A DNA stretch of 43,264 bases from the NCBI GenBank assembly GCA_021790995.1, contig JAJYFA010000015.1, positions 1-43,264 on the forward strand, in the 5' to 3' direction. The stretch is from Acidobacteriota bacterium (GTDB lineage Bacteria; Acidobacteriota; Terriglobia; Terriglobales; Acidobacteriaceae). A program made the position numbers and the translations under genes. The first letter of the stretch is position 1. Every line of letters begins with the position of its first letter. The notes below the pieces were generated by a model. The model saw only the letters and a list, made by a program, of their open reading frames with translations, searched no databases and was not told where the DNA came from. Below are positions 1,236-41,687 of this stretch, in pieces.

Positions 1236-1278
1236 TGTCCAATCACGATTTGTCGGTCGGTTATTCCAAAACGTGATA
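1236..1278 (-). promoter_or_regulatory. Bipartite motif, left copy, upstream of HTH gene
   Basis: On the plus strand this reads TGTCCAAT, 15 unmatched bases, then GGTTATTCCAAAA, one variable base and GTGATA. The same two blocks with exactly the same 15-bp spacing occur at 41645-41687 upstream of trbC. Relative to the downstream minus-strand gene both copies have the same orientation (133 bp from the HTH start here). It lies in a 357-bp divergent gap (1104-1460) between the HTH gene and the LysR gene, in which I see no other feature. A shared operator or promoter is the simplest reading. Confidence 0.6.
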
Positions 1279-1460
1279 GTTGGCGAAAAACCATTGTGCC
1301 ACTCAGACCATCTCACTTTGCCCCCAAGGCATCTAAAAACGCAACGCGGGCCGTATCCATTTTCGGATATGCCCATCGCGCACGCCCTTGCGAATGTGCC
1401 GTGAACCATTCAGAAGAGCCGGATGGTTTGGCCCTGCTCGTACAGGAAGGGGGCTGCATA

Positions 1461-2393
1461 GTGGCGAACGAGCTGAAGTACATGAGAGCTGCTATTGCGG
1501 TAGCCGAGGAACTGAGTTTTTCTCGTGCGGCCAAACGTTTGCACCTGAGCCAACCAGCGATCACGAAGTACATCTCTGAATTGGAAGAAAGTTTAGGCGT
1601 TTTGCTTTTTCTCCGCGCTCATCATGTTGTATCCCTCACTGAAGCGGGAAAGGCTTACGTCGAAGAGGCGCGCATCGTTGTGCTTCACGCAGAGCGAGCA
1701 GTACAGGTTGCCCGCGCCGCCGGTCACAATGTAGAAACAGTCTTGAACGTGGGACGAACACCGTATGCTGATCCCTTCTTTACATCCATCCTTCTTGCTA
1801 CCCGGCTGCCACTCTTTCCCCGACTGCGGTTGAATCTATCGAGCGGATTCTCTTGCGATCTGACGCACGATGTTCTTACCGGAGAATTGGACGTGGCTAT
1901 CGTAATTGAACCTCCAACTTCTGGACTTTTGACCACGTTGAGGATTGATGAATCGCCACTCTACATAGTCATGTCACAAGAAGACGATCTGGCACGCTTC
2001 CCCTCTATCAGTCTTCACCAACTCGCAGGTAAGCGCTGGGCGTTATTCCAGCGACAAAGCCACCCGCCGTTATATGACTTGATCCAAAAATCTGTACAAG
2101 ACCTGCATGTCGTCCCTACCGCGGTCCAGCATTACATGATCCCCGAGGAGAGCCTGCCAATACTTATCGAACCTAATGGCATTTTGATTGTTCCGAAGTC
2201 AGGCGCGCTGCGAATTGCCCGTGATGGTTTCACCATGCGACCTCTTGATGAAGCCAAGCTGACGACGCGCACCCTGCTCATATCCAGATCCGATAATTCG
2301 TCGCCTCTGCTTAGTGAACTGGTCCGAAGTTTTGTACGAAAAATAGGTCATCTAAACGCCGATAGCCAAATGTCATTGCCTATTCCTGCCTGA
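1461..2393 (+). CDS. LysR-type transcriptional regulator
   Basis: A 310-residue LysR-family regulator. The GTG at 1461 has AGGAAGGGGG upstream at 7-8 bp; ATG 1482 would cut into the HTH. Residues about 1-60 are the winged HTH (ELSFSRAAKRLHLSQPAITK, ISELEESLG). Residues about 90-290 form the effector-binding domain with the usual ELDVAIV strand. It is alone on the plus strand and faces the efflux block (2.4-12.1 kb) tail to tail, so it may control those pumps, but LysR regulators often act on divergent genes, and here the divergent neighbour is the small HTH gene. The effector is unknown. The open frame extends upstream to 1296 without ribosome-site support. Confidence 0.85.
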   Translation: MANELKYMRAAIAVAEELSFSRAAKRLHLSQPAITKYISELEESLGVLLFLRAHHVVSLTEAGKAYVEEARIVVLHAERAVQVARAAGHNVETVLNVGRTPYADPFFTSILLATRLPLFPRLRLNLSSGFSCDLTHDVLTGELDVAIVIEPPTSGLLTTLRIDESPLYIVMSQEDDLARFPSISLHQLAGKRWALFQRQSHPPLYDLIQKSVQDLHVVPTAVQHYMIPEESLPILIEPNGILIVPKSGALRIARDGFTMRPLDEAKLTTRTLLISRSDNSSPLLSELVRSFVRKIGHLNADSQMSLPIPA

Positions 2394-2573
2394 ATCCGAT
2401 TGTGACTCACTAATCGCTTTCTCGTCCAAGATCACAACATTGATTCGGCCTGACGTTTCACATTTTGAGCACGTGATTACGCCTACTGATATTGTCTGTG
2501 GGGCGATGTCATCAATCCTGATTACATTCCCACATCTCCGACATTGATGTACATGTACCCAACGTGCTTCCAT
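2373..2573 (-). CDS. Small zinc-ribbon protein
   Basis: A 66-residue protein with two CxxC pairs (CRRCG near residue 11 and CSKCE near residue 35), the pattern of a zinc ribbon. It starts at ATG 2573; the ribosome site is weak. It lies 58 bp after the DedA-rhodanese gene in the same direction, so it is likely the last gene of the efflux block. Its end overlaps the end of the convergent LysR gene by 21 bp. The function is unknown; such ribbons bind nucleic acid or serve as structural domains. The short length lowers confidence. Confidence 0.6.
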   Translation of the reverse strand: MEARWVHVHQCRRCGNVIRIDDIAPQTISVGVITCSKCETSGRINVVILDEKAISESQSDSGRNRQ

Positions 2574-2631
2574 AATCTGCCCGACAAATCGCTCCCTTTA
2601 TCTCTTCCGGTGTGGAGTGCCACGCTTTGAC

Positions 2632-3630
2632 TCAAGAGAAATGCCGAGGCGCTACGGTTATACCGAAACGAGCAGACATTTCTTCGGGATTCGGCAGGTC
2701 TGTGGTGACAGGAAAGCCGGAATCCCGCCAGCCCTGTAGACCGCCTTCGAGAACCCATACCTTCCTGATCCCTTTATGCCGCAGGGCGACGGCAACACGA
2801 GCGCTCGCTACTTCCTTTGGCGATGAACAGTACAGCACCATCTGGACGTCATCTGGAACGTGAACGCGCGGAGCCTTCCGTAATCGCGTTGGATCAACAC
2901 GAATGGCATCCGGTATGGCAGGGCCGGGCGCTGAGAGTGACTCGCCTTCACAAAGCAGAAGATCAAGTACAGCGATTTTTTGCCCGGACCTGAGCTTCTC
3001 TTCTAGGAGCGCTGGAGAAACGGTACGGATTCTCAGTTGACGCACCATGCGGGTCAGCTCCCACACCCGCCAGAGCAGATAGCAGAAGAGTGGGACAATA
3101 AGAAGCGCCGCCAAGGTGGTGCTTATGCGTCTCAAGGCGGCGGCGACTACCTCTACGTGGTCCGCAAAGAGATAACCTGTCAGGCAATATGTAGAGGACC
3201 ACAGTACCGATCCGATTGCGTCGAAGAGCAAAAACTCTATTGTTCCCACTCCTTCGAGTCCAGCCAGCGGCGGTGTAAGCCCATCAAGACCGGGAATGAA
3301 TTTGGCAATCACGAGAGTGCGCAATCCCCACCGTGCGAAGACCTCCCGCGCCCGCTGAACACAGTAGCGGCGATCCGAACTGAAGCTGCAAAGGATTCTT
3401 AGAATTCGGCTGCCCCACCAGCGGCCAGCCTGAAACCAAGCAAAATCGGCGACCAAACATCCTGTGATCGAAGTCAGGATAATCGCAAGCAGGCTCAGCT
3501 TACCGCTCGCTCCCAAGGCGCCAGCCATTATCAGGAAAAGCATTGCAGGAACGGGCAGGCCGATCTGGCCGGCGAACACGGCGAGAAGGATGGCCGGATA
3601 TGTAAGGAGCGGGATGTGGCTTTCGGTCAT
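2632..3630 (-). CDS. DedA-family (VTT/SNARE-associated) membrane protein fused to a rhodanese domain
   Basis: A 332-residue protein. Residues about 1-205 form a DedA-like membrane domain: several hydrophobic segments, the re-entrant motif FAGQIGLPVPAML and the signature FIPGLDGLTPPLAG. Residues about 215-320 form a rhodanese-like domain with the presumed active cysteine in LYCSSPKEVASA and the closing GGLQGW motif. DedA proteins are linked to lipid scrambling and proton-motive-force homeostasis, and rhodaneses carry sulfur. The fusion suggests redox or sulfur chemistry at the membrane, but no substrate can be read from the sequence. It lies 72 bp downstream of the DHA2 transporter in the same direction. 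The ribosome site before ATG 3630 is weak (AAAAAGAT). Confidence 0.85.
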   Translation of the reverse strand: MTESHIPLLTYPAILLAVFAGQIGLPVPAMLFLIMAGALGASGKLSLLAIILTSITGCLVADFAWFQAGRWWGSRILRILCSFSSDRRYCVQRAREVFARWGLRTLVIAKFIPGLDGLTPPLAGLEGVGTIEFLLFDAIGSVLWSSTYCLTGYLFADHVEVVAAALRRISTTLAALLIVPLFCYLLWRVWELTRMVRQLRIRTVSPALLEEKLRSGQKIAVLDLLLCEGESLSAPGPAIPDAIRVDPTRLRKAPRVHVPDDVQMVLYCSSPKEVASARVAVALRHKGIRKVWVLEGGLQGWRDSGFPVTTDLPNPEEMSARFGITVAPRHFS

Positions 3631-3702
3631 ATCTTTTTAACCGGAAGAACATTTTCAGTGACACAAGCGAGGTTCCATGCCTCGCCTTATGGATCGGCAT
3701 CC

Positions 3703-5304: not shown

Positions 5305-5330
5305 TTGAGCCGTCTTAGAATCCCCTTGCA

Positions 5331-6149: not shown

Positions 6150-6208
6150 AATGGCAAATTCTCCGAACGAATATCCCGTTTCTCTCTGTCTGATTGTCCT
6201 GGTCAGAG

Positions 6209-10833: not shown

Positions 10834-10836
10834 GGA

Positions 10837-12093: not shown

Positions 12094-12389
12094 CTGCTTT
12101 CCTTCTGATGAGCATTGATCGCAGCTTAGGAGTAAGTGGAAGATTGCCGTGAGCTTAAAGCGCTGAGCGCGTGTATTGTTTCCTCTTGCGCGTGAAATGC
12201 GGGGATGAATAAACGGATGGGAAGCGCCTGGTTTCGCCTGCGAAGGCGTCATTCCGCGTTGATACGCGATTCTTCCGCACTGGTCCTTTTCTTCTCGGCT
12301 GAATTCAACAGGCAGAATTAGGCTCGCAATGGGCAACAGAAGCCACGCGCGTACCGGCCATATCAGCAGACAGGAGAGGGGAGCATCAA

Positions 12390-13070: not shown

Positions 13071-13141
13071 GGATAGGAACAGGGGCGTTCGGAACTCGTG
13101 TATTTCTAGCGGCGAAAAGACGCAGAAAGAAATGTGACGCT

Positions 13142-13558: not shown

Positions 13559-13613
13559 ATGGCGACCAATGGGTTTCGCCATTCGGGTGACCGGCATTAA
13601 CCGCTACGCGCAA

Positions 13614-16402: not shown

Positions 16403-16461
16403 GGTACGCCTTCGATATAGACGCTCCTATTGCCGCTTCTTCTACGCGGAACAAGAGGGCA

Positions 16462-16489
16462 TGAGCGCGTAGAAATTGCGCCTGAACGC
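16462..16489 (+). promoter_or_regulatory. LytTR-type direct repeat, kinase-proximal pair
   Basis: TGAGCGC at 16462 and TGAACGC at 16483 are exactly 21 bp apart on the plus strand, that is, two helical turns. On the other strand they read GCGCTCA and GCGTTCA, close to the LytTR half-site core GTTnAG/T. The pair lies 60 bp upstream of the kinase start and mirrors the pair at 16548-16576. An autoregulatory operator for the LytTR regulator is inferred. Confidence 0.6.
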
Positions 16490-16547
16490 TGGCGATAGAG
16501 AAGCTGAGATTAGTGGTTCTGGCAAAAAAGCGGAAAGGAAAAACTCC

Positions 16548-24937: not shown

Positions 24938-24943
24938 CGCACG

Positions 24944-24988
24944 TTTGGGAGGGACGAATGTTTCGTTTTACAGTGACAGTCCCAAACC
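24944..24988. terminator. Possible terminator between convergent genes
   Basis: GTTTGGGA (24944-24951) can pair with TCCCAAAC (24981-24988), and inside it ACGAA-TGT-TTCGT followed by TTTTA forms a smaller stem. It covers the ends of the small plus-strand gene and of the relaxase gene. The stem is interrupted, so support is weak. Confidence 0.35.
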
Positions 24989-27733: not shown

Positions 27734-27735
27734 GG

Positions 27736-29742: not shown

Positions 29743-29744
29743 GA

Positions 29745-30131
29745 TTATTCTCCTGCGCCGCTGCGATAGCTTTCCATGAGGTCAGCGGCTACCTTGTGCT
29801 TGTTGGATTTCACGTAGCGGAGCATTTCCTTGAACTGCTCCGCGCTCCATTTCTCGCCGCGTAGAAGCGGCTCAAGCGCGTTGATGAGGATGAGGCGAAG
29901 CCCCTGAACCTCAGCAAATATCGCACTCTCATCGTGCAGACGCGAGCCACGCGCTGCCTCTAACAGAACCTCACGCGACCATTCGCGGAGATTCATGCCC
30001 CGGTCGGAAGCGACCCGCAACAGGGTCTTTTCTTCCGCCCTGGTAAAGCGCGTGGCGATGCTCTGGCTGCGGCTTTCGCGGCCTTTCATGTGCTGGAGAC
30101 GGCTCTCAATTCCTAATGAGTCAGTCGGCAT
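29745..30131 (-). CDS. Relaxosome accessory protein, ribbon-helix-helix-like (TrwA-like)
   Basis: A 128-residue protein. Residues about 22-60 (SIATRFTRAEEKTLLRVASDRG, then LREWSREVLLEAA) look like a ribbon-helix-helix domain; the rest is helical. By position just before virD4 and the relaxase, it matches TrwA/MobC-type proteins that bind oriT and assist nicking. ATG 30131 follows GAGGTGAT. It is separated by 2 bp from virD4, so the three form an operon. Confidence 0.75.
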   Translation of the reverse strand: MPTDSLGIESRLQHMKGRESRSQSIATRFTRAEEKTLLRVASDRGMNLREWSREVLLEAARGSRLHDESAIFAEVQGLRLILINALEPLLRGEKWSAEQFKEMLRYVKSNKHKVAADLMESYRSGAGE

Positions 30132-30139
30132 GTATCACC

Positions 30140-30300
30140 TCGAACCTGCGTTTTGGCAGTGATTGCAGATGGAAACGCGAAATTCACGCTGCGCCTGCAA
30201 CCGCTCTGTTTTCTGCATGGTTCCCGATGGAACCGGAACGGTTCCAAACGCAACCCTTTCAGGGGTGGAGTGTCGAAATTGTTCCGGTGCGGAGCACCGT
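30140..30300. other. Candidate origin of transfer (oriT)
   Basis: This 199-bp gap (30132-30330) lies between two RHH-like genes and just upstream of the relaxosome operon. It holds GCGTTT/AAACGC (30148-30178), the alternating arms GGTTCC, GGAACCG, CGGTTCC (30219-30245, two mutually exclusive perfect hairpins) and CGGTGC-GGA-GCACCG (30285-30299). CTGCGTTTTGG at 30147 resembles, from memory, the TGCGTATTG part of the R388 nic region. The position and the inverted repeats fit an oriT; the nick site is not proven. Confidence 0.5.
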
Positions 30301-30330
30301 CGTGGTCCCGGCACAGATTCCAGAGGCGAA

Positions 30331-30645
30331 TCATGCTCTCGCCCTCTGCACAGAATCACCAGACTCCACCCCGACAGCAGGTTTCTTGGAAGGCTGCTCT
30401 ACCGCATCGGAAACGGTGGCTCTGCGGACACGCAGAGTCGGCGTGATGTGCTGCGCTTCAGGAGTCCGAAGGAAGTCCTGAAAGTCGCGGTCTTTCGAGA
30501 AGACATAGGCGAGGGCTTTGTCCACTACATCGTCGGCGGATGCGTGGATGAAAGCGGCGTATTGATCGACCTGCGCGGCGGTCGTTTCATCGAGCCGGAC
30601 GGTCGCGTTGACGTATCGGATTTGGGTGACTTCAATCAGTGCCAT
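30331..30645 (-). CDS. Small RHH-like DNA-binding protein
   Basis: A 104-residue protein; ATG 30645 follows AAGGAGAACACCA, and the longer open frame upstream is not supported. Residues about 10-60 (NATVRLDETTAAQVDQYAAF, then ADDVVDKALAYVF) suggest an Arc/MetJ-like ribbon-helix-helix domain; the tail is disordered. It borders the candidate oriT on the other side from the TrwA-like gene, so it may be a StbA-like or relaxosome regulator. It lies 23 bp downstream of the primase gene. Confidence 0.7.
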   Translation of the reverse strand: MALIEVTQIRYVNATVRLDETTAAQVDQYAAFIHASADDVVDKALAYVFSKDRDFQDFLRTPEAQHITPTLRVRRATVSDAVEQPSKKPAVGVESGDSVQRARA

Positions 30646-30668
30646 TGGTGTTCTCCTTGTGGGTGGAA

Positions 30669-31616
30669 TCAGGCCAGCTTGCGCCGGGCAATCATGCGCT
30701 GCGCGGTAGCCGCAATCTCCCGCGCACGAGCGGAGCAAAGTGCGGCGGGAATCTCGAAGCGGCGGCGGGATTCGAGCATGGTGATTACGTCATCGAAACG
30801 GATGCCTTCGATAAGCCAAAGGCGAGCCGAAGCCATGTCTACGGTGCGCTGCGCGTAGTAGAGAGGATTGGGCTTGTCGGCGCGGCGGTGGGCCAATTCC
30901 CGCGTCAGCTTCACGGCATCTTTGCCGTGGGCAAGCTCGTGCGCTACCCATGCCCAATCACTCTCTGAATGGCTGTGCTTGCCGGGTTGCTTCCGGGGCG
31001 GGATGGCACGGTCAAAGAGCATGGTATCTGCCGCCGCAAAGTCCAGCCGGAAGTCGGCGGGACTCCAGACAGAATCGCAAGGATATTCGACCGTGACGCA
31101 GTGAGCGGGATCGTACTTGCGATTATGGAATCCAGGCACGCGAAGGACGCGGTTACAGTCCGTGCAGGCGGGATCGCTGCCGAACATGACGGAGAGGATT
31201 TTGAGCGCGGTTTCCTGACGCTCAAAGTCGAAGCCATCTACGCGCCAAAGCACTTGATATTTGCCGGGCGATGTGGAGAGGATGGCGGTTGGTGTGGGCA
31301 CTGCATCCGATGCCCGGAGTGTAGCGAGCCGGGCATCCCCATCCTCGTCTATATCGAGGTACAGATGCCGGACGGAAGCAATGCTCTCTTTGGTCCGTTT
31401 CCGGCTGCCGGAGCGGAGCGGATTGGCCGCGACGTAGACGTTGGCTCCGGTGCTGTTCTCGTGCGCGAGCCAGCCGAGATAGCGAGGCGCAAGCGCCTGT
31501 TCCAAGCAGACGACACGCTGGGTCGCAGAGACGGGATTCTCCCGGCGAAGCAGGACGGCAATCGTCTCAGCCGGAGCGAAGCAATGGGTGAGAAATTCGG
31601 TGGCAATACTCTTCAT
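30669..31616 (-). CDS. RepB-like DNA primase
   Basis: A 315-residue protein of the RepB-primase type. The catalytic acidic motif is LYLDIDEDGD (about residue 89). TSPGKYQVLWRVDGF and CNRVLRVPGFHNRKY are the other conserved blocks. It would make primers on transferred single-stranded DNA or in rolling-circle-like replication of the excised element. Its ATG overlaps the trbB stop by four bases (ATGA), with GAGGTG upstream. No separate replication initiator is visible in the window. Confidence 0.88.
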   Translation of the reverse strand: MKSIATEFLTHCFAPAETIAVLLRRENPVSATQRVVCLEQALAPRYLGWLAHENSTGANVYVAANPLRSGSRKRTKESIASVRHLYLDIDEDGDARLATLRASDAVPTPTAILSTSPGKYQVLWRVDGFDFERQETALKILSVMFGSDPACTDCNRVLRVPGFHNRKYDPAHCVTVEYPCDSVWSPADFRLDFAAADTMLFDRAIPPRKQPGKHSHSESDWAWVAHELAHGKDAVKLTRELAHRRADKPNPLYYAQRTVDMASARLWLIEGIRFDDVITMLESRRRFEIPAALCSARAREIAATAQRMIARRKLA

Positions 31617-32569
31617 GGCTGCACCTCGAAAACTGGCTCGATAAGGAAGCGTTTGGTGTCGCGGTCGTAGCCGCGCAGCGTCAGCACTTCGCGGATGACG
31701 CGGCGGCCCGGTCGCCGCTCGACATGGACAATGAACTCGACCGCCTCGGCAATCTCTGCCTCCACGTCGGAGAACGTGGCTTGCGAATGCGAACGCATGA
31801 CAAGGTTGGCGAAACGATGCAGGGCTTTTTCGGCGGAGTTGGCATGGATGGTGGCGAGCGAACCGGAGTGGCCGGTGTTGAGCGAATCGAGCAACGTCCG
31901 TGCCTCGATGCCGCGCACCTCGCCAAGTATGATCCGGTCGGGACGCCAGCGCAGGGCGGACTTCAAGAGGTCATCGAAGGTGATGTTTGCCTTGAAGGTA
32001 TCCGTCTGACACTCGACGGCCAGCAGGTTCGGTTTATGGAGATGAAGCTCCGACGTGTCTTCAATGACAACGATGCGCTGGTCTTCGGGGATCGCGCTCG
32101 CCAGAGCGCGGAGCACGGTGGTCTTTCCCGTCGAAGTTCCGCCGCTGATAAGCAGTGTCTTTCCAGCGGCGATTTGCTTTGCCAGAAAGCCCGCAAGCGG
32201 CAGCGTAAGCGTGCCGCGAGCAATGAGGTCATCGACCGTGAAATGACGGCTGGGAAACTTCCGAATGGTGAGCGCGGGCGCTGGCCGCACGACGGGCGGA
32301 ATGACTGCCGCAAGGCGGCTTCCATCGGGGAGCTGCGCGTGCAGCAAGGGATTGTCTTCGTCCAGATGTTTGCCGAGTTGGTTGGCAATCACTTCAAGGC
32401 CGGTGCGGAGCCGCTGGCCGTCGAAGTGGATGGTCTTTTCCTGATGCAGAATTCCATCGCGCTCGTACCACCACGACGCATCGGGATTGCCCATGATTTC
32501 GCTGATGCTGTCGTCCAGCAACAGCGGTTCGATAGGGCGAAGGAATGGAAGAATCAACTCGAAACTCAT
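31613..32569 (-). CDS. trbB: VirB11/TrbB-type T4SS ATPase
   Basis: A 318-residue hexameric secretion ATPase. It has Walker A GGTSTGKTTVLRAL (about residue 145), the aspartate-box VVIEDTSELHL, Walker B RIILGEVRG and the HisBox TGHSGSLATIHAN. It powers channel assembly and switches between pilus and DNA export at the inner membrane. ATG 32569 follows CTGGAGATT; the frame is open to 32629 but would include a hairpin. It lies downstream of ssb, behind a terminator-like hairpin. Confidence 0.95.
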   Translation of the reverse strand: MSFELILPFLRPIEPLLLDDSISEIMGNPDASWWYERDGILHQEKTIHFDGQRLRTGLEVIANQLGKHLDEDNPLLHAQLPDGSRLAAVIPPVVRPAPALTIRKFPSRHFTVDDLIARGTLTLPLAGFLAKQIAAGKTLLISGGTSTGKTTVLRALASAIPEDQRIVVIEDTSELHLHKPNLLAVECQTDTFKANITFDDLLKSALRWRPDRIILGEVRGIEARTLLDSLNTGHSGSLATIHANSAEKALHRFANLVMRSHSQATFSDVEAEIAEAVEFIVHVERRPGRRVIREVLTLRGYDRDTKRFLIEPVFEVQP

Positions 32570-32588
32570 AGCGGGAATCTCCAGCGAT

Positions 32589-32613
32589 GGAAGCCCAACG
32601 TTGCCGGGCTTCC
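32589..32613 (-). other. Stem-loop in the trbB leader
   Basis: GGAAGCCC (32589-32596) pairs with GGGCTTCC (32606-32613). It lies between the ssb terminator and the trbB start. It may mark the 5' leader of a separate trbB transcript or limit read-through. Confidence 0.45.
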
Positions 32614-32623
32614 ACGATGAAAA

Positions 32624-32648
32624 GGACATCCCCTAAAGGGGGATGTCC
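32624..32648 (-). terminator. Intrinsic terminator overlapping the ssb stop codon
   Basis: On the minus strand GGACATCCCC pairs perfectly with GGGGATGTCC around a 5-nt loop that contains the ssb TAG stop, and TTTT follows. This is a textbook 10-bp intrinsic terminator for the leftward transcript. The stem includes the codons of the conserved SSB tail (DIP), so coding and termination share the bases. Confidence 0.75.
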
Positions 32649-33046
32649 TCGGCCTCCGGCTCTGCGGCATCGGATACGTCGTCCGCTGCGGCCTTCTCAG
32701 CGCGGTCGAGCTTCAGGATGGAGCTGACCCGGATCTCCCAAACGCGCTGCTTCGCTTCGACCTTTTTGCTCTTGCCGGTCGCCTTCTTGGGCGTGTACTC
32801 CCGGCTGCGTAGCTCACCTTCCACCTGAACGTGCGTGCCTTTGGTGAGCGTCCCGGCGAACTTCGAGAGGCCGCCGAAGACCACGCAACGGTGCCATTCG
32901 GTATGCGAGACGTATTCGCCGCTCTGCTTGTCCTTATAGGAGGACTTGGTAGCGACCGAGAACGTGGTAAAGCTGCGGTCGTTGGAGGTGTGAACTTCCG
33001 CGTCGTTGCCGAGAAAGCCGATGAGGTTGACTTTGTTCTGATACAT
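32633..33046 (-). CDS. ssb: Single-stranded DNA-binding protein
   Basis: A 137-residue SSB. The OB-fold part (about 1-105) has MYQNKVNLIGFLGNDAEV, FSVATKSSYKD and HTEWHRCVVFGGLSKFA. The acidic tail ends in EAEDIPL, near the usual DIPF tip that recruits partner proteins. ATG 33046 follows CGGAGA. An SSB on a conjugative element coats incoming strand DNA and dampens the SOS response. It sits inside the T4SS block, between trbF and trbB, and has its own terminator. Confidence 0.95.
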   Translation of the reverse strand: MYQNKVNLIGFLGNDAEVHTSNDRSFTTFSVATKSSYKDKQSGEYVSHTEWHRCVVFGGLSKFAGTLTKGTHVQVEGELRSREYTPKKATGKSKKVEAKQRVWEIRVSSILKLDRAEKAAADDVSDAAEPEAEDIPL

Positions 33047-33511
33047 GATCGTGTCTCCGTTTGTTGAATTTCCCGAACTTGATCGGGTCACGAAAAAAGC
33101 GAGTGGGCCATGCTCCCTAGTGCCGAAGCTCTGCATTTGCGGAAGGTTCGGAAAATCTTTTTGCGTTCGTTGCACAAAAGTTTTCTGAAAGCCGTAAAAG
33201 CAGAAGAGCGAGCTGCCGACGGGCGCATGAAAAGCCCCGAAGCCGTGACCGAGCATAGGCGGGATACAAAACGGAAGACACATGCCGGAGCAAAGTTCTC
33301 ATCTGCATCCCGGCTGCCGAAGTTCACTCCTATCGCAGCGGTGTTCGGGCTACCAAAGACTCCTTTAGCAGAGCGCAGTCCGCCATTCCCGTTGCGTTGC
33401 GGCAGCCTCCTGTTCGCCTGCCTCACCATGCACAAGAGAGGAAGGGATACAGCAGCCGGGCTGGTAGCAAGAGCAGGCATAGCGAAGCCTTTGGGAATCC
33501 GGGGCCACCCT
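33047..33511 (-). other. 465-bp gap between trbF and ssb
   Basis: No convincing gene is visible. The open frame at 33088-33480 (minus) has a poor ribosome site and a composition of R, S, A and C that looks like read-through of non-coding DNA. A weak CCGAA/TTCGG stem lies near 33122-33155, and GAGCATGGCCCACTC then GCTTTTTTCG (minus strand, near 33080-33115) resembles a poor terminator. The stretch probably carries the ssb promoter and leader. Confidence 0.5.
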
Positions 33512-34195
33512 CTAGTCGAACCCCTGATCCGCGCGGAAGCGCACGATGGTCAAGCCGAGAGGATTCACAGCCAGCTCGTTGTTCTTCACCACCTCGCGGA
33601 AGGCATAGGTAACGCTGGCGGTCCATCGCTCCCGCTTGAGTTCCGTGTGGTCGGATGGGTTGGCATAGACCTTTTCAAACTCGATGCGGGCTGAATACGG
33701 CGACTGTCGAAGGTCGTCAAGGATGACGTTCTTCACCTCCACATCGACATACGGAAGGCTACTGTCGTTGCGGTAATTCAGGATGAGGTTGTCTTTCCGT
33801 TCCTGCTCGATGACGGCCCGTTGTACATCGCTATTGAGGAAATACAGCGCGTTGGTCTGGTCGCGCTCGATGGTGAAGCGATTGCGGCTGAAGTACAGCT
33901 CCGTCCAGCGGGTGAGGTAATACTTGTTCTCGGCTTCCTGCGGACGATACTGGAAGTTGCGATAGTCAATCGCCTCGGACTCACCTACGTCCTTGATGCG
34001 GATAAAAAGGGGGTGCATGTGCGCCAGTGCTCGCTGGCTCTGCCATGCAATCGCGGCGAGCGCAATACATGCCACAGACAAGGCCAGAATCGTGACCTTC
34101 AAATAGGTATTCATCACCAGCGGGTCGCCGTACTGTTCGAGATACCGTTCTGCGGCGCGGGTGATTTCGGGAACGGGTTTTGTCTGTACGCTCAT
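33512..34195 (-). CDS. trbF: VirB8/TrbF-type T4SS component
   Basis: A 227-residue bitopic inner membrane protein. A short cytoplasmic N-terminus precedes the membrane segment YLKVTILALSVACIALAAIA (about 31-50), then a periplasmic NTF2-like domain (YRPQEAENKYYLTRWTELY, ARIEFEKVYANP, WTASVTYAFREVV). It links the core complex to the inner membrane platform. ATG 34195 follows CAGGAGGCACA. It is the last gene of the trbC-to-trbF run. Confidence 0.93.
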   Translation of the reverse strand: MSVQTKPVPEITRAAERYLEQYGDPLVMNTYLKVTILALSVACIALAAIAWQSQRALAHMHPLFIRIKDVGESEAIDYRNFQYRPQEAENKYYLTRWTELYFSRNRFTIERDQTNALYFLNSDVQRAVIEQERKDNLILNYRNDSSLPYVDVEVKNVILDDLRQSPYSARIEFEKVYANPSDHTELKRERWTASVTYAFREVVKNNELAVNPLGLTIVRFRADQGFD

Positions 34196-34209
34196 TGTGC
34201 CTCCTGCAA

Positions 34210-35070
34210 CTATGCCGCCAGTGTGCGAACCGCCATCGCTAGTACACCCAGACCGCCGCCACCACCACCGCCGCTGCCGAATAAGCTATGGGTCATGGTC
34301 GGAATCTTGAAGAGGATGTAAATGCTCACCAGCACCAGCAGCACAAGCAGCGGCAAGGTCTGAACGATGGTGGCCGGGTCGGAAAGGCTCTGGCCGAGGG
34401 AGACGTAGTAGTTGGTCAGAACATGCGACAGAACACTCATGGAAGCGGCGGCGACCACCTTGTAAAACGAAAATCCGAGATATGCCTTGAGCCAGCCCCA
34501 AAACAGCCAGTCGAGCTTGTCGAAGACAAGAAACGGAATGAATAACGGCCCCAGGAGGCCGATGATCGTGGAGGCAATCGCGCCGTAGGCGAGGATTGCA
34601 GAGACAACGGCTGCGAAGACAGCCAATAAAAACTGCACGACGAAATACACAAGCGCGTAATAGGGCGACATCATGGTGGAGAGCAGTGATGGCCCGGTCT
34701 TGGACGATGCCGCATGAATCTGATTCAGCATCGAAGTCGAGCCATCCGCTCCAATCACGTTCACAAGGTTGGTCGTGCCTCCATCAATGAAGCCTTTGAG
34801 GGAGAAGCCAAGTCCGGGGATGGAACTGTCGTAGTAGTTCACCATCGCGTATGCGAAGGTGAGCAACATGAAAAGGTTGAGAAACCTTGCCATGCTGAAG
34901 CCCGGCCCGCCGTGGGCGGAGGCAAGGGACTCCTGTACGCCAAACCACACAAGCATGATGGTTGCCAGCGCCAGGACGATGTGCGTACCCATCGCGGTAA
35001 CGGAAGGCGCTGCCGTCGCTGCAAGCGACTGGCAAGCCTGCGAGATATAGTCGAAGAGTCCCGTGCCCAT
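34210..35070 (-). CDS. trbL: VirB6/TrbL-type T4SS membrane protein
   Basis: A 286-residue polytopic protein with about six membrane segments (for example IVLALATIMLVWFGVQ, YFVVQFLLAVFAAVVSAIL, TLPLLVLLVLVSIYILF) and a glycine-run tail (SGGGGGGGLG). It forms part of the inner membrane channel. It is shorter than many TrbL proteins (400-500 residues) but complete in frame. It begins 20 bp after trbJ. Confidence 0.88.
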   Translation of the reverse strand: MGTGLFDYISQACQSLAATAAPSVTAMGTHIVLALATIMLVWFGVQESLASAHGGPGFSMARFLNLFMLLTFAYAMVNYYDSSIPGLGFSLKGFIDGGTTNLVNVIGADGSTSMLNQIHAASSKTGPSLLSTMMSPYYALVYFVVQFLLAVFAAVVSAILAYGAIASTIIGLLGPLFIPFLVFDKLDWLFWGWLKAYLGFSFYKVVAAASMSVLSHVLTNYYVSLGQSLSDPATIVQTLPLLVLLVLVSIYILFKIPTMTHSLFGSGGGGGGGLGVLAMAVRTLAA

Positions 35071-35090
35071 GTCTGTGCCCTCTGGCTTTC

Positions 35091-35978
35091 TCAGTACGAC
35101 TGCGTGAGAAGGTTCGCCGCGCCGCTGCTGGTGGTGGTGATGTTGGCGTTGTAATAGCTTTCATATCCGGCTGAATCGCGGAATGCCGATTTCATCGCGT
35201 CCTGCTGCTGCTTCTGCATGACCATCTGCTGCAACGCGGCATTTGCGTTGATCTGGTTCGCGTCCTGCATGGTGCGGAGTTGCAGTAAGAGGGCGCGATT
35301 GATTCGTTGTAGGACGGCCATTTCCGATTGCTGCGAGGTGTCGGTGGAGTTTGTCGCGTTCTCAAGCGCGGTAATGTCGGCCTGCCGCGCTGCCTGATTC
35401 GCCTTGATGGTGCCGATGGTCTGGAGTTCGGTTGCAGCAACCGAATCTCCGAGGTCCACCGTCGCGCCCTGCGCTGCCACCTGCTGCTGCCCGGCATAGG
35501 TCGCAATGCTTGTCGTGGGAATCGTCGCGGTGAGCGGCGGGAGACTGGCAAGCTGAATCGAAGACGCCGCGGCTGTGCCAGTATTCGAGGCATTGACCCA
35601 TGAAGTGCCGGAACCGTTGCCATAGTGATTGGCAAGCTGTTGCGTCATCATCAGGTCTGCCTGTGGAGAGAGAAAGCGCCCATAAAGCATCTGCGGCGCA
35701 ACCATCATCTCGTGATAGAGGTTGTACTGCTGGACGATCTGGTTGTAGGTTTGCAAGGCAGTGGACGCGATTTTCACGGTGTTGGTGAAAATCTGCTGGC
35801 CGTTCTCGATCTGCTGCATCTGGTTGCTGATGGACTGTTCTTCATGTGAGATTTGGGTGATGGCATGGGCAGATTGGGTGGGGTCGTAGACGATGCCGGA
35901 GCCGAACTGCGCCTGCGCTGCTGGCCCAAGCAACACAGCGAGTCCAGTGGCAAATGCAAGAGGGATGAGCTGCTTCAT
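35091..35978 (-). CDS. trbJ: VirB5/TrbJ-type T4SS protein
   Basis: A 295-residue exported protein; ATG 35978 follows AAAGGACACC. The signal peptide ends AAQA before QFG. The mature part is helical (QQIENGQQIFTNTVKIAS, TYNQIVQQYNLYHEM), with Q-rich coiled segments near the C-terminus. VirB5/TrbJ proteins act at the pilus tip or in mating-pair contact. It lies 26 bp after the lipoprotein gene. Confidence 0.88.
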   Translation of the reverse strand: MKQLIPLAFATGLAVLLGPAAQAQFGSGIVYDPTQSAHAITQISHEEQSISNQMQQIENGQQIFTNTVKIASTALQTYNQIVQQYNLYHEMMVAPQMLYGRFLSPQADLMMTQQLANHYGNGSGTSWVNASNTGTAAASSIQLASLPPLTATIPTTSIATYAGQQQVAAQGATVDLGDSVAATELQTIGTIKANQAARQADITALENATNSTDTSQQSEMAVLQRINRALLLQLRTMQDANQINANAALQQMVMQKQQQDAMKSAFRDSAGYESYYNANITTTSSGAANLLTQSY

Positions 35979-36004
35979 AGTGGTGTCCTTTCGGTTGCGG
36001 TGTT

Positions 36005-36298
36005 CTATTGCTGCGCGGCAAGAATCTGCCGCTGAATGTCTGCAAGATGGTCGGCCTGCGGTTTGCAACGCGCCTCCTGCGCTTTCTTCTTTGCGTCAAG
36101 AGCCGCCATCTGCTCTGCGGTCAGCTTTTCGCCGGTCAGCATCCGTGCGGCCCCGGAGGTGTTGTCGTCAGGGCAGGCATTGGTGTAGGCCGTATACGCG
36201 GCGTTGTACTGTTCCTGTAGCTGTTGCAGCTTGTGGGCTTTGCTCTCGCAGCCTGCGAGAGCAAGGATGGGCAAGAGAACGAGAACGGCAGGGCGCAT
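36005..36298 (-). CDS. Small T4SS lipoprotein (TrbK/VirB7-like position)
   Basis: A 97-residue lipoprotein; ATG 36298 has an ideal AAGGAGGTTTCC site. The lipobox is LAGC at about residue 17, followed by a helical stretch (KLQQLQEQYNAAYTAYTNAC) and two further cysteines (NACPDD, EARCKPQ) that may form a disulfide. Location within the trb block suggests a VirB7-like outer membrane core part or a TrbK-like exclusion lipoprotein; sequence alone does not decide. Confidence 0.75.
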   Translation of the reverse strand: MRPAVLVLLPILALAGCESKAHKLQQLQEQYNAAYTAYTNACPDDNTSGAARMLTGEKLTAEQMAALDAKKKAQEARCKPQADHLADIQRQILAAQQ

Positions 36299-36308
36299 GG
36301 AAACCTCC

Positions 36309-37640
36309 TTAGTACGTCTGCGGAATGGTGTGGTTGGAATACGCAGGCAGCAACATATCCTGCGTGAAGTAAATCTTGACCCTATGCCCCTCCCGAATCG
36401 TGATGGTCGGGGGTATCTGCATAAAGCGGTCAAGGATGCTGGTGGCCGACTGCGAGATGCTGGCGGATGATCCGGTGACAAATGCCTGGGAGCCGCTGGT
36501 GCTGATCGTGCCGCCACCTTCCTCGATCTCTCCGGCCCCGGCAATAACACCCAGGGCAATCGAAGTCCCGAAGATTTGCAGGTAATGGTTGTTGACCTTA
36601 TCTTTCAGACCTTGCTCTCCGATCTGGTCGAGACCGTGGAATTGGTCAAGGTCCACGCTGTAGCCGTCCGGCATGATGAGGCGGTGAAAGACCACGGTCA
36701 TGCGACGCTGCTGGCCGAAGCCCGCCGCGCCGATCTTCTTGGCCTCCCCAAGCACTACCGTCCCATCAGGGATAAGGACGTGCTGACGGTCGTGGGAGTA
36801 GAGAGGATTCGACACGAGCACCTTGACCGGCCCTGCGGCATCACCGTCCAGACGATTCATCAATATGGCGTCCAGTACCGTGCCCTCGTATAAGAGGTAA
36901 GGCTGGCCGGTCGCAGAGTCGATATTGGCCTCTACAGGACGCTTGTAACCTTCGCTGGTTTCCGGTTGCTCTCCTGCCGGACGCGGCGGGATAAGACTGC
37001 TGCTTTCCGGTTTCTGCTGGCTGGCGGATGTGCTTGCACTGGCAGCTTGTGCCGGAGACTGCATCGGCTGCGGCTGGTCGGCTCCACGAACATACACAAG
37101 ATTGGAGGCGAAGCGCGACTCATCGGCGCGTTCGCGCTCCTTCGCGGCAATCTGCTGCGCCTGCTGTTGTTCGGGCGTAAGCTGCGGCTGCGCGTTGCTC
37201 GGCTGACCATAGCCGGACTGAGCCGGTGTGCAGGGCTGGCCTGGTACACACTGGCCGGTCGGCGTGAGCGAACCGATAGCGGCCTGTTGCGCGGGTGTCG
37301 CAGAGGCAAGCGCGGGATCTCCTTGAGCGGCGGCAATAGCCGCTTGCTGCTGCTCCTTCAGGCGCTCGGCCTGAAGCTGGTTCTTCAAGTCCTGCACATT
37401 GTTGTCGGTGTTGTCTTGAATCATCGGCTGCGGCGGCTGGCCTTTGCCAGCGGTCTGCTGTCCCGGCGTCTTCTTGCCGGAGGAACTGAAGACCGCCGCC
37501 ACAATCACCAGCAAGGCCGCGCCGAGATATACAAAGGTCTTGAGGTTCTTTTGCAGTACACCCTTCGGCTGGACGCTCGTATGCCGCAACTCCGGCTCGG
37601 TCTGTGGCTGTGTTGGTGGAATGACATTGTTCTCGGCCAT
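36309..37640 (-). CDS. trbI: VirB10/TrbI-type T4SS core protein
   Basis: A 443-residue protein spanning the envelope. A proline-rich N-terminus, one membrane helix (TFVYLGAALLVIVAAVFSS, about 34-52), a long P/Q-rich periplasmic linker and the C-terminal TrbI domain (GTVLDAILMNRLDGDAAGPV, VLIPDGTVVLGEAKKIG, YSVDLDQFHGLDQIGEQGL) are all present. It connects inner and outer membrane complexes and gates the channel. It starts 5 bp after trbG. Confidence 0.95.
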   Translation of the reverse strand: MAENNVIPPTQPQTEPELRHTSVQPKGVLQKNLKTFVYLGAALLVIVAAVFSSSGKKTPGQQTAGKGQPPQPMIQDNTDNNVQDLKNQLQAERLKEQQQAAIAAAQGDPALASATPAQQAAIGSLTPTGQCVPGQPCTPAQSGYGQPSNAQPQLTPEQQQAQQIAAKERERADESRFASNLVYVRGADQPQPMQSPAQAASASTSASQQKPESSSLIPPRPAGEQPETSEGYKRPVEANIDSATGQPYLLYEGTVLDAILMNRLDGDAAGPVKVLVSNPLYSHDRQHVLIPDGTVVLGEAKKIGAAGFGQQRRMTVVFHRLIMPDGYSVDLDQFHGLDQIGEQGLKDKVNNHYLQIFGTSIALGVIAGAGEIEEGGGTISTSGSQAFVTGSSASISQSATSILDRFMQIPPTITIREGHRVKIYFTQDMLLPAYSNHTIPQTY

Positions 37641-37645
37641 GACGC

Positions 37646-38413
37646 TTACCCCTTCCGCGTGAAATCCATCCGCTTCTTGCCAAGCTCGACGTACCCGTTA
37701 TCCATCACCTTCGGGATGATGTAGGTGTTGTCGCGCAGCTCGTAGTTCACAAGGTTGGGCTTGCCGTCCCGCATCTCGTACACGCTGAACTTCTCCGGCG
37801 CATTGGTCTTGATGTAGGTGAACTTGTCATCGTGGTAAATGGACTGAATATCGAAGGGCGCTTCATTGGCGCGGAACGTGTAATCGAATTTCAACTGGAG
37901 AGGATAGGCGCTCTTGTACTCGTCCACGGCCTGCGAGATATGCGATTGCACAGCGGCGAGCTGCTGTTGCGATTGCGCCAGTTGCGCGGCAGGCACGAAC
38001 TGCGGCGGGCCGCTGGCGGCAACAATCGCGGAGCGGTCGGCAGGCTCCACGATCACCTTGAGGTCGGGAGCATCCGAAGACGCCGAAATGTCCTGAAGGG
38101 TGAAGCTGTAGATATTGCCTTTGTCGGTGATGAGGTCTAAGTTCGATGCGATTCCAGCTTTTGCCGGATGCACAAAGCAGAAGTTGCCGACTACATCGAC
38201 GATCCAAAAATCCTTGTCGCCGCTCGTTGCGGCTATGATCTTTTCCGTTGAGGGAACTTCGATAAGCGTGGTGTACTTCACCTTCGCCCGAATGGGCACA
38301 ATGTCCTGCGAGTGGTATTGGACGGTGCGGGCGGACGCATCTTGCGCGGAAGCCACAGCGGACGAAAGGCCAAGAGCAAGCCAGGCGAGAGTGATGGGGA
38401 CACGGTTCTTCAT
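37646..38413 (-). CDS. trbG: VirB9/TrbG-type T4SS core protein
   Basis: A 255-residue exported protein; ATG 38413 follows CAAGGAG and overlaps the trbE stop by four bases. The signal peptide ends ASA before QDA. The N-terminal domain (YHSQDIVPIRAKVKYTTLIE, DKDFWIVDVVGNFCFVHPAK) and the C-terminal beta domain (FKY-like FDYTF, FDIQSIYHDDKFTYIK, YIIPKVMDNGYVELGKK) match the VirB9/CagX family. It forms the outer membrane ring with TrbI. Confidence 0.94.
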   Translation of the reverse strand: MKNRVPITLAWLALGLSSAVASAQDASARTVQYHSQDIVPIRAKVKYTTLIEVPSTEKIIAATSGDKDFWIVDVVGNFCFVHPAKAGIASNLDLITDKGNIYSFTLQDISASSDAPDLKVIVEPADRSAIVAASGPPQFVPAAQLAQSQQQLAAVQSHISQAVDEYKSAYPLQLKFDYTFRANEAPFDIQSIYHDDKFTYIKTNAPEKFSVYEMRDGKPNLVNYELRDNTYIIPKVMDNGYVELGKKRMDFTRKG

Positions 38414-40908
38414 TGGGAGACTCCTTGTTTGGGGTTGGTGACGGTGAGCGAGCGGGGTTTGAAGGGATGATCCTGAGCGAGATGGCGCAGCCCCTCGGCT
38501 ACGCCGTACCGCTCGAAGTATTCGCGTTTCTTGAGGTTGTCGCGGGTGTTGTTGGTCGCCATCCAATGCGAGATGGAATCGACGTTGAGCTGAACCTTTT
38601 TGGAAGATTGCGCCTTGCGTATGAGCATCTGGCCGGGCGGTACAAGCCCGGCAATTAAGTCGAGTTCGGTATCGTTCAGGCGAAAGGCTTCCCGGTACTG
38701 CTCCCGGTTCATATCGGGATTGGCGAGAAAGATTTTTGTGGGGAAACCTTCCGAAACAAACTCAACCATGCCCTCGTGCATTAGCTCCTGCAACGAAAGC
38801 ATCGCCAGAATCATTGCGCCGTTGTGTTTCCGCCACATCTTTTGCGCTTGAAAAACATAGTTGCGGATAGTGGGGTTGGCAATGAATCCCCGCGCTTCGT
38901 CTATCAGGAACATCTTGAAGGTGGCGAGATTCTTAGGGACAGTGATTTCGTTGGAGGTCCGGTGCAGCACATAGAACAGCAGCGGGTCCAGCACCTCCGG
39001 GGAGTCATCCCATCCACGGAAGTTGAATGTCTGAAACATGCTGAAAGAAAGCGTGTCGGCGGCATTGTCGAAGAGGTAGCCGTATTGTCCGGCCCGCGTC
39101 CAGCGATGGAGGCGTTCTTTCAACTCGCCTACGATGTTGGCGAAATTGGTCAATGTCCGCTGGTCGGCGTCCAGCACATACATGCGCTCGATGCCGTCCC
39201 ACAGTTTGCGTTCCTCTTTGAAATCCATTCGATAACGCTGATCGTTGCCCTCGATGAGCACGCGAAAGAACGCGAAAAGGAATTGCAGGTTGTCTTTCGT
39301 CGGCGGCAGTGAGAAGGGATTGATAGTGAAATCCCGCGACTCCTGGCCGACGTTCAGATAGCTTCCGCCGAAGATGCTGGTGAGCGATTGGAAGCTCCCG
39401 CCAATGTCGAAAATCACCGTGAACGGCGCATATTTCTGCGCGTTCTGGAGGATGAAATTACATAGAAAACTTTTGCCTGATCCAGTGATGCCCATGATGA
39501 AGGTGTGGGCGACCTCTCCGTTGTGCAGGTTCAAAAAGTACGGCGTGCTGTTGTCCGTTTCGAGTACGGCAAGGTACTCAGCGCCGAGATGGGCGTTGCG
39601 CGTTTCGCCCGGCAGGATGGTAAAGAGAAACGAAAGGTCGGCATAGTTCGTATTCAGCAGGTACAGCCTGCGGAGATTGGTGGCATAGCCGCCCGGCACG
39701 GTAGCAAAGTAAGCATTGAGCTGGTTGTACGTCTCGACGTAGAGATTGCCGTCCGCATTGGTAAAGACACTGGCGAACTCCCCGATGAGTTGGTCTGTCT
39801 CTGCCTTCGCGGGCGCATACACCACAATCGTCAAAGAGAAGTCGCCCAACGATTGCCCGTCACCCAGGGCACGGAGGCAATCACCAAGATTCTCGATGTC
39901 AGCCTGCTTCGATTCATCTACCAGCACATCGCGGGGATTGGTCTTTGTCGCATCGTTGCCCATCTGCGAGATAAAGCCGGTCTTCGACATATTGAAGTGG
40001 CGACGGCGCTTGTTCACTTCCTTCCGTGCCTTGTCGGTGGCGAGCGGCGTCCATTCCGTGATGACATAGAAGTTCGCTGGAATCTTCAGCAGTGAGTCCA
40101 AGACCAGAGGCTTAGTCTCGGTAATAGCCTCTTTCATCGTGAGGACGCGGACGACATGATCGCCCACACGCAGATGATCGCGTTCGGCCTCGATGTTGGA
40201 ATTGACTACCTGATAGTCAAGGAACTGCGTGGACTGCGGCTTGCCCGCGATGCGCCACTCGTCGTAGTTGAGCAAGCGGCGAAAGAAGCGAAACTGCTCC
40301 TGCTGGCCCAACACTTCAATCTGCATGAAATCGGCAAGCTGGCGGATAAATGCCTGTACCTTCTGCTCCAGCCGCGCAAGCTCGTTCTCGATCTGCGAAC
40401 GCAGCAGAACCTTCATGCTGTCGTTGGTGAACTGTGTGCGAAGCTCGCCCATCGCCCCGGCAGGATCGCGGAAGAGTTGAGCAAAGGCAGCGCCGACGCC
40501 ACTCTTCGAGCGCGGGCCTTCGAGCATGATGGCGTAGAAGATTTCGACCTGATAGAGATGGTCGCGCTTGGCCTCGAAAAACTGCCGCCGCTGCTCGATG
40601 GCTGCCTCTACAACCGGGTCGTCGTAGTGGGCAAACGGAATCTCAGGCCGGTTCGACTTGAAAAGATACTGGTAGACGTGGAAGCCGGAGCCGAAGGCTT
40701 TGAGCGCAGCTTCCAGCCGCTTGACCGCGTATTCCTGTTGCGCGTGGTCAAGGCTCTCGTAGTCCACGCCGGGAACGCTCAGAACCATGCCTACATCGCC
40801 GCTCTTAGTGAGGAAGGCAGTTTCATTCCAGAAGCCATACAGGTTGATGTGGTCATTCAGCGCCGCCGCTTCTTTCCAGGGCTTGATGACTTTATCCAGT
40901 CGCAGCAT
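38410..40908 (-). CDS. trbE: VirB4/TrbE-type T4SS ATPase
   Basis: An 832-residue ATPase. The N-terminal CagE/TrbE domain covers about 1-400 (ALNDHINLYGFWNETAFLT, FVITEWTPL-like YVITEWTPL). The C-terminal ATPase has Walker A MGITGSGKSFLC (about residue 477) and the Walker B MFLIDEARGFI. It drives pilus assembly and substrate transport. ATG 40908 overlaps the trbD stop by one base (TGATG); the open frame to 41019 is trbD sequence in another phase. It is intact. Confidence 0.95.
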   Translation of the reverse strand: MLRLDKVIKPWKEAAALNDHINLYGFWNETAFLTKSGDVGMVLSVPGVDYESLDHAQQEYAVKRLEAALKAFGSGFHVYQYLFKSNRPEIPFAHYDDPVVEAAIEQRRQFFEAKRDHLYQVEIFYAIMLEGPRSKSGVGAAFAQLFRDPAGAMGELRTQFTNDSMKVLLRSQIENELARLEQKVQAFIRQLADFMQIEVLGQQEQFRFFRRLLNYDEWRIAGKPQSTQFLDYQVVNSNIEAERDHLRVGDHVVRVLTMKEAITETKPLVLDSLLKIPANFYVITEWTPLATDKARKEVNKRRRHFNMSKTGFISQMGNDATKTNPRDVLVDESKQADIENLGDCLRALGDGQSLGDFSLTIVVYAPAKAETDQLIGEFASVFTNADGNLYVETYNQLNAYFATVPGGYATNLRRLYLLNTNYADLSFLFTILPGETRNAHLGAEYLAVLETDNSTPYFLNLHNGEVAHTFIMGITGSGKSFLCNFILQNAQKYAPFTVIFDIGGSFQSLTSIFGGSYLNVGQESRDFTINPFSLPPTKDNLQFLFAFFRVLIEGNDQRYRMDFKEERKLWDGIERMYVLDADQRTLTNFANIVGELKERLHRWTRAGQYGYLFDNAADTLSFSMFQTFNFRGWDDSPEVLDPLLFYVLHRTSNEITVPKNLATFKMFLIDEARGFIANPTIRNYVFQAQKMWRKHNGAMILAMLSLQELMHEGMVEFVSEGFPTKIFLANPDMNREQYREAFRLNDTELDLIAGLVPPGQMLIRKAQSSKKVQLNVDSISHWMATNNTRDNLKKREYFERYGVAEGLRHLAQDHPFKPRSLTVTNPKQGVSQ

Positions 40909-41204
40909 CAGCGCACCTCCACGCGGGGAACCTGTTGCTTGGCCGCGTCGTAGCGCAGCTTGTACTTCTCCGACTTGGCGAGGATGCGAAGAAAAGCCGG
41001 GTCGCTGCTCGTCACCCAATGGCCGAAAGCGAAGCCGCCGATGAAGACGGCGATACCGGCTAGGATGGAATTGAAGATGTTGAACGCGCCGACCGCGCCG
41101 ACACAGACGAAATAAAACAGGGTGCGCTCGACGCCGAGATAGGTAAGGGGCTTATGCAGGCTCTTGAAAACACGATTGCTGCGGGTTGTGGGTTGTTCTG
41201 CCAT
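40908..41204 (-). CDS. trbD: VirB3/TrbD-type T4SS protein
   Basis: A 98-residue inner membrane protein with two adjacent hydrophobic segments (TLFYFVCVGAVGAFNIF, ILAGIAVFIGGFAFGHW) and a start typical of VirB3/TrbD (FKSLHKPLTYLGVER). The C-terminal cytoplasmic tail (PAFLRILAKSEKYKLRYDA) contacts TrbE in related systems. It lies 48 bp after the pilin gene. Confidence 0.92.
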   Translation of the reverse strand: MAEQPTTRSNRVFKSLHKPLTYLGVERTLFYFVCVGAVGAFNIFNSILAGIAVFIGGFAFGHWVTSSDPAFLRILAKSEKYKLRYDAAKQQVPRVEVR

Positions 41205-41252
41205 AAGCCCCTCGCTGTGCTGAGTGGGTTGGTGGGAGTGGAGAGAAGCGCC

Positions 41253-41579
41253 TTAGACGCCCCATAGCCAGGTAAGGACGTTGACCGCCATCACAGCGAT
41301 GCCCGTACCGGCTGCGACTCCGGCCAGGGCTTTCTTGGCTCCGGGTTCTCCGTGGGCAAAGCCGTAGCCGCCGATCACAATGGCGACAAGGCTTGCGACC
41401 TTTGCAATCGTTCCGGTGAACAACGTCTGAATGGCGGTAAAGCCGGTATCAAAGGGAGAGCCGCTGGATTGGGCGTGCGCAGCCAGCGGCAGTAGCAGAA
41501 TGGTGAACGCGAAAAGGCCCGCAACACGAGGTCGAAGAATCAACCTGTTCCTGCGGGCCGGACGACGAGCCTTGAGCAT
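41253..41579 (-). CDS. trbC: VirB2/TrbC-type pilin
   Basis: A 108-residue prepilin. A basic N-terminus and a signal peptide (FTILLLPLAAHA, then QSS) precede two hydrophobic helices (TIAKVASLVAIVIGGYGFA, AAGTGIAVMAVNVLTWLWG), the classic VirB2 pattern. It would be processed to the conjugative pilus subunit. ATG 41579 has a perfect GGAGGTGCAAT site. It is the first gene of the transfer operon and follows the 43-bp motif. Confidence 0.92.
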   Translation of the reverse strand: MLKARRPARRNRLILRPRVAGLFAFTILLLPLAAHAQSSGSPFDTGFTAIQTLFTGTIAKVASLVAIVIGGYGFAHGEPGAKKALAGVAAGTGIAVMAVNVLTWLWGV

Positions 41580-41644
41580 ATTGCACCTCCGCTGACTCAG
41601 GTGTTGTCAGCATGGGCGCAAACGTAAGGTGTATCAGTACATAA

Positions 41645-41687
41645 TGTCCAATAACAGAAGCACTTTTGGTTATTCCAAAATGTGATA
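41645..41687 (-). promoter_or_regulatory. Bipartite motif, right copy, upstream of the transfer operon
   Basis: This copy has the same TGTCCAAT and GGTTATTCCAAAA-n-GTGATA blocks as 1236-1278, with the same 15-bp spacing but unrelated filler. It ends 66 bp before the trbC start, on the correct side for control of trbC. The rest of the 203-bp gap (41580-41782) holds the trbC ribosome site and the integrase terminator. Confidence 0.65.

Follow-up and report, generated by a model that had tools for sequence, protein, structure and literature searches.

The window analysed here is an entire contig of 43,264 bases from an Acidobacteriaceae genome (assembly of 4.15 Mb in 263 contigs, 94% complete). 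Judged by its genes and ends, it is an integrative and conjugative element (ICE) sitting at the transfer-messenger RNA (tmRNA) gene of an acidobacterium. Our subject is a pair of predicted operators in this element, one before a small helix-turn-helix (HTH) gene and one before the transfer operon, and the LysR-type regulator that would read both. Pfam and NCBIfam profiles identified a tyrosine integrase, a MobF/TrwC relaxase (MobF type, NF041492), a TrwB coupling protein and the full VirB set, together with ParB and ArdC. Integrase, relaxase, coupling protein, type IV secretion system and flanking repeats, which together mark an ICE, are thus all present. The 3′ part of the tmRNA gene lies at the right end, and a 26-bp repeat of that gene occurs at the left end as well; ARAGORN found no tRNA or tmRNA in the window, the cut tmRNA being detected by Rfam (Table 1).

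A 43-bp motif of two blocks occurs at 1236–1278 and 41645–41687, with exactly 15 bp between the blocks in each copy, just as a preliminary description of this DNA had it. These were the only matches in the window (2 observed, 0 expected, none in 100 shuffles), and the long block alone, with up to three mismatches allowed, returned the same two sites and no others. Across the assembled genome, searches with a spacing of 13–17 bp, or with a longer pattern and up to three mismatches, again yielded only this pair. Both copies lie in the same orientation upstream of minus-strand genes, the HTH gene and trbC, in agreement with that description; the left copy also occupies the gap upstream of the divergent LysR gene. 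Using the 26-bp end repeats, the two sites would be ~2.7 kb apart in the excised circle, slightly closer than the ~2.8 kb given before.

Table 1 Positions of genes, predicted promoter parts and end repeats in the window
Feature	Position	Strand	Basis
26-bp end repeat (att), left copy	20..45	.	read in the sequence by eye
Small HTH protein, at the position of the excisionase-like gene of relatives	708..1103	-	position
Likely −10 AATCGT of the HTH promoter, weak, 19-bp spacer	1212..1217	-	class pattern vANNNT
−35 box TTGGAC of the HTH (xis-like) promoter	1237..1242	-	
Predicted operator, HTH-gene side; imperfect dyad TATCAC-N5-GGAATA with T-N11-A core	1262..1278	-	
LysR-type regulator (proposed activator); gene divergent from that of the HTH protein	1461..2393	+	PF00126, PF03466
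Remaining transfer region: VirB3, B4, B9, B10, B6, B8, SSB, VirB11, RepB primase, TrwB, TrwC/MobF relaxase	24968..41204	-	
trbC (VirB2 pilin), first gene of the transfer operon	41253..41579	-	PF04956
Short trbC leader: small hairpin, possible pairing with the ribosome-binding site	41580..41620	-	
−10 box TACGTT of the trbC promoter, 19-bp spacer	41621..41626	-	
−35 box TTGGAC of the trbC promoter	41646..41651	-	
Predicted operator upstream of trbC; dyad TATCAC-N5-GGAATA	41671..41687	-	
Tyrosine integrase	41783..43138	-	PF00589, PHROG integrase
26-bp end repeat, right copy (3′ end of the tmRNA gene)	43197..43222	.	by eye and Rfam

Promoter architecture upstream of trbC

The functional unit is longer than the motif and reads, on the minus strand, as a 17-bp dyad, 18 bp, ATTGGAC, 18–19 bp and a −10 hexamer. 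By reading, an interrupted dyad with T-N11-A lies upstream of the −35 box at both window sites; the two operators are almost identical, while filler and spacer differ between the copies. A 20-bp block, with up to two mismatches, was found in 8 of 399 genomes of the class (the window's included) versus 5 for a reversed-pattern control, so sharing of the exact letters does not exceed chance.

We took 30 TrbC relatives from these 399 genomes and aligned the DNA before trbC. Some TrbC match was present in 99 genomes, and the 33 loci used are the best matches, above ~50% identity, which is a possible bias. A TTGGAC or TTAGAC with TANNNT 18 or 19 bp further on occurs exactly once before trbC in 29 of the 33; the set of 32 promoters analysed below includes three added by hand (G103, G364a and G396a) and omits G396b, which lies at a contig end. 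Because this pairing of TTGGAC/TTAGAC with TANNNT recurs in relatives, we read the ATTGGACA block as the −35 region. The larger block has the form of a dyad operator with a T-N11-A core. Conserved blocks with free filler had been taken for a regulator's site as a whole; the idea stands for the operator and is refined here to an operator plus a −35 box.

Measured from the first T of TTGGAC, dyad symmetry in the 32 promoters peaks at a centre of −28.0 bp (5.2 of 10 arm positions matched against a mean of 2.5; z = 6.1), with a smaller second peak at −17.5. A further set of 63 promoters (80 loci fetched from named genomes, reduced to 64 by removal of 16 duplicates and to 63 by one locus without a promoter) gave the same centre of −28.0, with 6.1 of 10 positions matched and z = 7.6. 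Over the 95 pooled promoters, T stands at −34 in 81% and A at −22 in 92%, and T-N11-A centred at −28 is present in 75%, versus a mean of 7% over 70 centres. The operator letters vary between loci while the architecture upstream of trbC recurs. The classical position of a LysR activator site is −65; with transcription taken to start ~7 bp after the −10 box, the dyad also lies near −65, the layout that such an activator site would have. T-N11-A itself is given as the LysR recognition signature in passages of PMC8407307.

Elements of this kind were found in Granulicella, Edaphobacter, Terriglobus, Acidipila and many acidobacterial metagenome-assembled genomes. At one locus (L089, on contig C87 of G386), three operator–promoter copies lie close together at 9152–9282; two of the three share a dyad, one on each of its strands.

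LysR genes, second sites and matched operators

The window LysR has both domains of its family (PF00126, E = 2.2e-20; PF03466, E = 8.9e-20). A LysR gene was found in 25 of the 32 loci. It immediately precedes trbC on the same strand in 19, stands ~4 kb upstream in one, and is 26–57 kb away in the remaining five, among them the window. The LysR proteins fall into two fully supported clades, one of these five distal proteins and one of the other 20. In 24 of the 25 loci with LysR, a TTRGAC stands on the strand divergent from LysR, 153–250 bp from its start; this feature is the sole definition of the second site. T-N11-A is present at −28 in 61% of 36 second sites. Two loci illustrate the pairing, with CATTCC-N5-GGAATG at both sites of G212 and TATGC-N7-GCATA at both sites of G115; their second copies directly precede LysR genes whose products are 40–42% identical to the window's. 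For G212 and G372, each with two TTRGAC, the site nearest 195 bp from LysR was used, and the LysR of G284 was chosen after its second site had been seen.

Where the gene after the second site was inspected by eye (19 second sites, with 17 of the 24 position-defined ones covered), it was a small HTH gene in all 19, followed in 12 by a tyrosine integrase (three confirmed by Pfam). HTH_17 or AlpA scored above the Pfam cut-off in 13 of the 17 HTH proteins scanned; G107 and G218 gave a weak HTH_17 match, and the window protein and its homologue in G292 matched neither family above the cut-off. The protein of one relative matches PHROGs excisionase families, and those of the window and G292 do not; the window protein had no Pfam match above the cut-off and none in PHROGs or NCBIfam. 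Its C-terminal domain is conserved in 93 of the 399 genomes. Six of 30 loci with a homologue of the window-type HTH gene have a neighbouring LysR, and all six carry an upstream TTRGAC with a dyad (scores of 4, 7, 9, 9, 8 and 8 of 10). The six include the window and G292, and one besides the window was already in the main set; the link between LysR and the site thus extends beyond the loci collected through TrbC. In the integrated element the window's HTH gene and integrase are far apart, one at each end; circularization would place them side by side on one strand, as in the 12 relatives.

In the second promoters, those of the HTH genes, the −10 box is missing its first T: vANNNT fits 34 of 36 and TANNNT none of 36, against 11% and 4% of random sites. 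All 36 trbC promoters have TANNNT, in part by construction since they were picked partly by their −10. Because the first T is missing, the excision promoter may be the weaker of the two.

Reading of both sites by a single regulator predicts that operators from the same locus resemble each other more than they resemble those of other loci. In 24 loci (G396a, which has no second site, was omitted), operators of the same locus were alike at 13.2 of 21 positions versus 6.9 when permuted, and none of 100,000 permutations reached this value. The result was similar for the 20 loci with less than 70% LysR identity (14.2 versus 7.6), and permutation inside LysR clades only gave p = 5e-5. Within the window's own five-member clade p was 0.008, near the minimum that five loci allow. 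For twelve further loci p was 5e-5 when 21 bp were compared and 1e-5 when 33 bp were.

Operator similarity also rises with similarity of the LysR DNA-binding domain (r = 0.29, p = 0.0008), including when VirB4 is held constant (r = 0.26, p = 0.002), and VirB4 adds nothing once LysR is given (r = 0.007, p = 0.44); these correlations cover 23 loci, three with short VirB4 fragments. The operators thus appear to follow the DNA-binding domain of LysR to a modest degree; between related islands, both switches seem to be rewritten as a pair.

A proposed circuit, its rivals and its precedents

We propose, with a probability of roughly 0.86, that the window LysR binds both T-N11-A operators and controls, likely by activation, the HTH gene and the trbC operon. 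It would bind two near-identical dyads, each centred 28 bp before TTGGAC and ~65 bp before the inferred start, and would most likely activate when its inducer is present; activation is suggested by the promoter layout. Its targets would be the transfer operon and the HTH gene, whose product is probably an excision factor. Transcription from the HTH promoter in the circle would run through the HTH gene, attP and the integrase and onward towards trbC, all on one strand, which would restore the xis–int order of relatives. Control of the HTH gene and the trbC operon by one regulator, as first proposed, is supported by the second sites before HTH genes and by the match of same-locus operators. Between the two candidate regulators named in the preliminary description, the LysR protein emerges as the most likely for both sites and the HTH protein recedes.

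Several observations weigh against this proposal. The operators of one LysR clade (G191, G115b, G398, G242 and G248) are unmatched, at 5.0 positions versus 5.2 expected; an operator's own partner ranks first in just 12 of 24 loci, and a free scan placed the own second copy above all other loci in 13 of 32. No LysR was found in the fetched DNA of 7 of the 32 loci; one of these (G103) is on a 49-kb contig fetched whole, and several of the rest stop at contig edges. In the further set, 41 of 63 loci had none in the fetched stretch, many on short contigs, and a second site was missing from 10 of the 22 that did have LysR. Of the 41 loci without LysR, 15 have a second site facing away, 364–413 bp before the trbC promoter; because the operators are alike across the 15, they give no test of element-specific matching. 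In the window itself, the HTH protein matches no excisionase family, its promoter has a poor −10, and the dyad is imperfect, with four of six inner arm pairs matched and a score of just 4 of 10 for the HTH-side operator as a 10-arm dyad.

Most of what is known about how ICEs couple excision to assembly of the transfer apparatus comes from Proteobacteria and Firmicutes, and SetCD, an ICE activator, is not of the LysR type. The closest precedent shows that the circuit is not new in kind, contrary to what had been claimed: in ICEKKS102Tn4677 of the Tn4371 family, the LysR-type TraR raises xis 80-fold and traG about threefold, and a T-N11-A dyad lies just upstream of the xis −35 box, with a half-site before traG (PMC11448139). 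In both systems, as far as the passages of that paper describe TraR, the ICE encodes a LysR, a T-N11-A dyad precedes the −35 box of the xis-slot gene, and LysR-type sites stand before the excisionase-slot gene and the transfer operon; likened by description, the acidobacterial circuit would work as TraR does. The differences are that TraR has a full dyad at xis only, whereas here a full operator with the same spacing stands at both promoters; that traR lies among cargo genes in Proteobacteria, whereas the acidobacterial LysR gene is placed next to the excision and transfer modules or between them; and that operators here are recoded from element to element, unlike the TraR system as described. 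TciR of ICEclc, also of LysR type, is an activator needed for ICE transfer, but it is a global activator in an operon of three regulators with MfsR and MarR, and passages of PMC4063739 describe no matched pair of xis and transfer operators. SetCD is a single activator of transfer functions in SXT/R391 ICEs (PMC4344509). In the literature searched, no paper came up on LysR and ICEs in Acidobacteria or on conjugation and type IV secretion in Granulicella, and those that came up on Acidobacteriota ICEs mention no such circuit in their titles or the opening lines of their abstracts. What would be new is the matched full operator at both promoters, the joint rewriting between elements and the acidobacterial setting.

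The layout also bears on whether LysR might instead repress both promoters, or repress one and activate the other. Many LysR sites double as autorepression sites, according to passages of PMC8407307, and the lysR promoter lies in the same intergenic region. We nevertheless consider repression unlikely, since in both promoters the dyad precedes the −35 and −10 boxes instead of overlapping them, the usual position for an activator, and the Tn4371 TraR activates (PMC11448139). That the HTH protein binds both sites, regulating itself and transfer, is very improbable: it is DNA-binding-like, it adjoins the left operator and its C-terminal domain is widely kept, yet the slot genes belong to differing families (HTH_17, AlpA and the window type) while the dyad position and the T-N11-A core stay constant, the operators follow LysR, and T-N11-A is a LysR signature (PMC8407307). 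Least credible of all is that the blocks reflect a shared host promoter type or a recent duplication with no dedicated regulator. The constancy of TTGGAC and −10 in relatives and the near identity of the two window operators would fit such an origin, but the genome holds just two copies of the motif, filler and spacer are dissimilar while the operator is kept, and operator letters change jointly at both sites of a locus, which neither an ancestral duplication nor a host promoter type would produce.

Returning to control by LysR, we tentatively suggest a further step, which we hold rather doubtful. A fixed promoter chassis (dyad, 18 bp, TTGGAC, −10), used by acidobacterial ICEs for both excision and transfer, whose operators are rewritten jointly with the LysR DNA-binding domain could give each lineage a private channel that stops co-resident ICEs from setting each other off, and the weaker excision −10 could order transfer-gene expression relative to excision. 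For acidobacterial elements, the proposal provides a testable switch with regulator, operators and promoters named, and the loci offer a natural series of matched regulator–operator pairs for studying how LysR specificity changes.

The trbC leader, other promoter types and neighbouring genes

Short trbC leaders, in the window and in relatives, fold a small hairpin, and the 5′ end of the leader pairs with the ribosome-binding region. In an alignment of 27 of the 32 leaders (G123, G248, G362, G364b and G386 omitted), three of four consensus pairs show two-sided changes. Over 77 distinct leaders, with relatedness not controlled, pairing of a leader's own arms was stronger than that of swapped arms (−8.6 versus −7.0 kcal/mol); the energy test of the inner hairpin was weak and badly cut. 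The leader is possibly an element of translational control.

Sigma-54 and extracytoplasmic function (ECF) −35/−10 readings of the two window sites were rejected by eye, a sigma-70-like promoter with TTGGAC and NANNNT 18–19 bp on fitting better. The window's own ECF sigma factor and LytTR regulator were also set aside as controllers, neither having a tblastn match in the relatives' 20 first stretches.

The left part of the element (2632–12336) carries cargo, efflux genes among it: a VTT–rhodanese fusion, an MFS transporter, an OEP protein, an RND pump and an HlyD-like adaptor. Among 72,556 plasmids the window TrbC had no match, and the LysR search returned only distant LysR proteins (best ~32% identical). 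Immediately upstream of the element in one relative (L075 of G123, 14–10186) is a second, distant VirB set, 26–41% identical to the window VirB proteins, that has a LysR-like gene of its own. The window's own genome holds two more TrbC relatives on contigs C170 and C123 (44% and 41% identical), which suggests other conjugative modules in the same genome.

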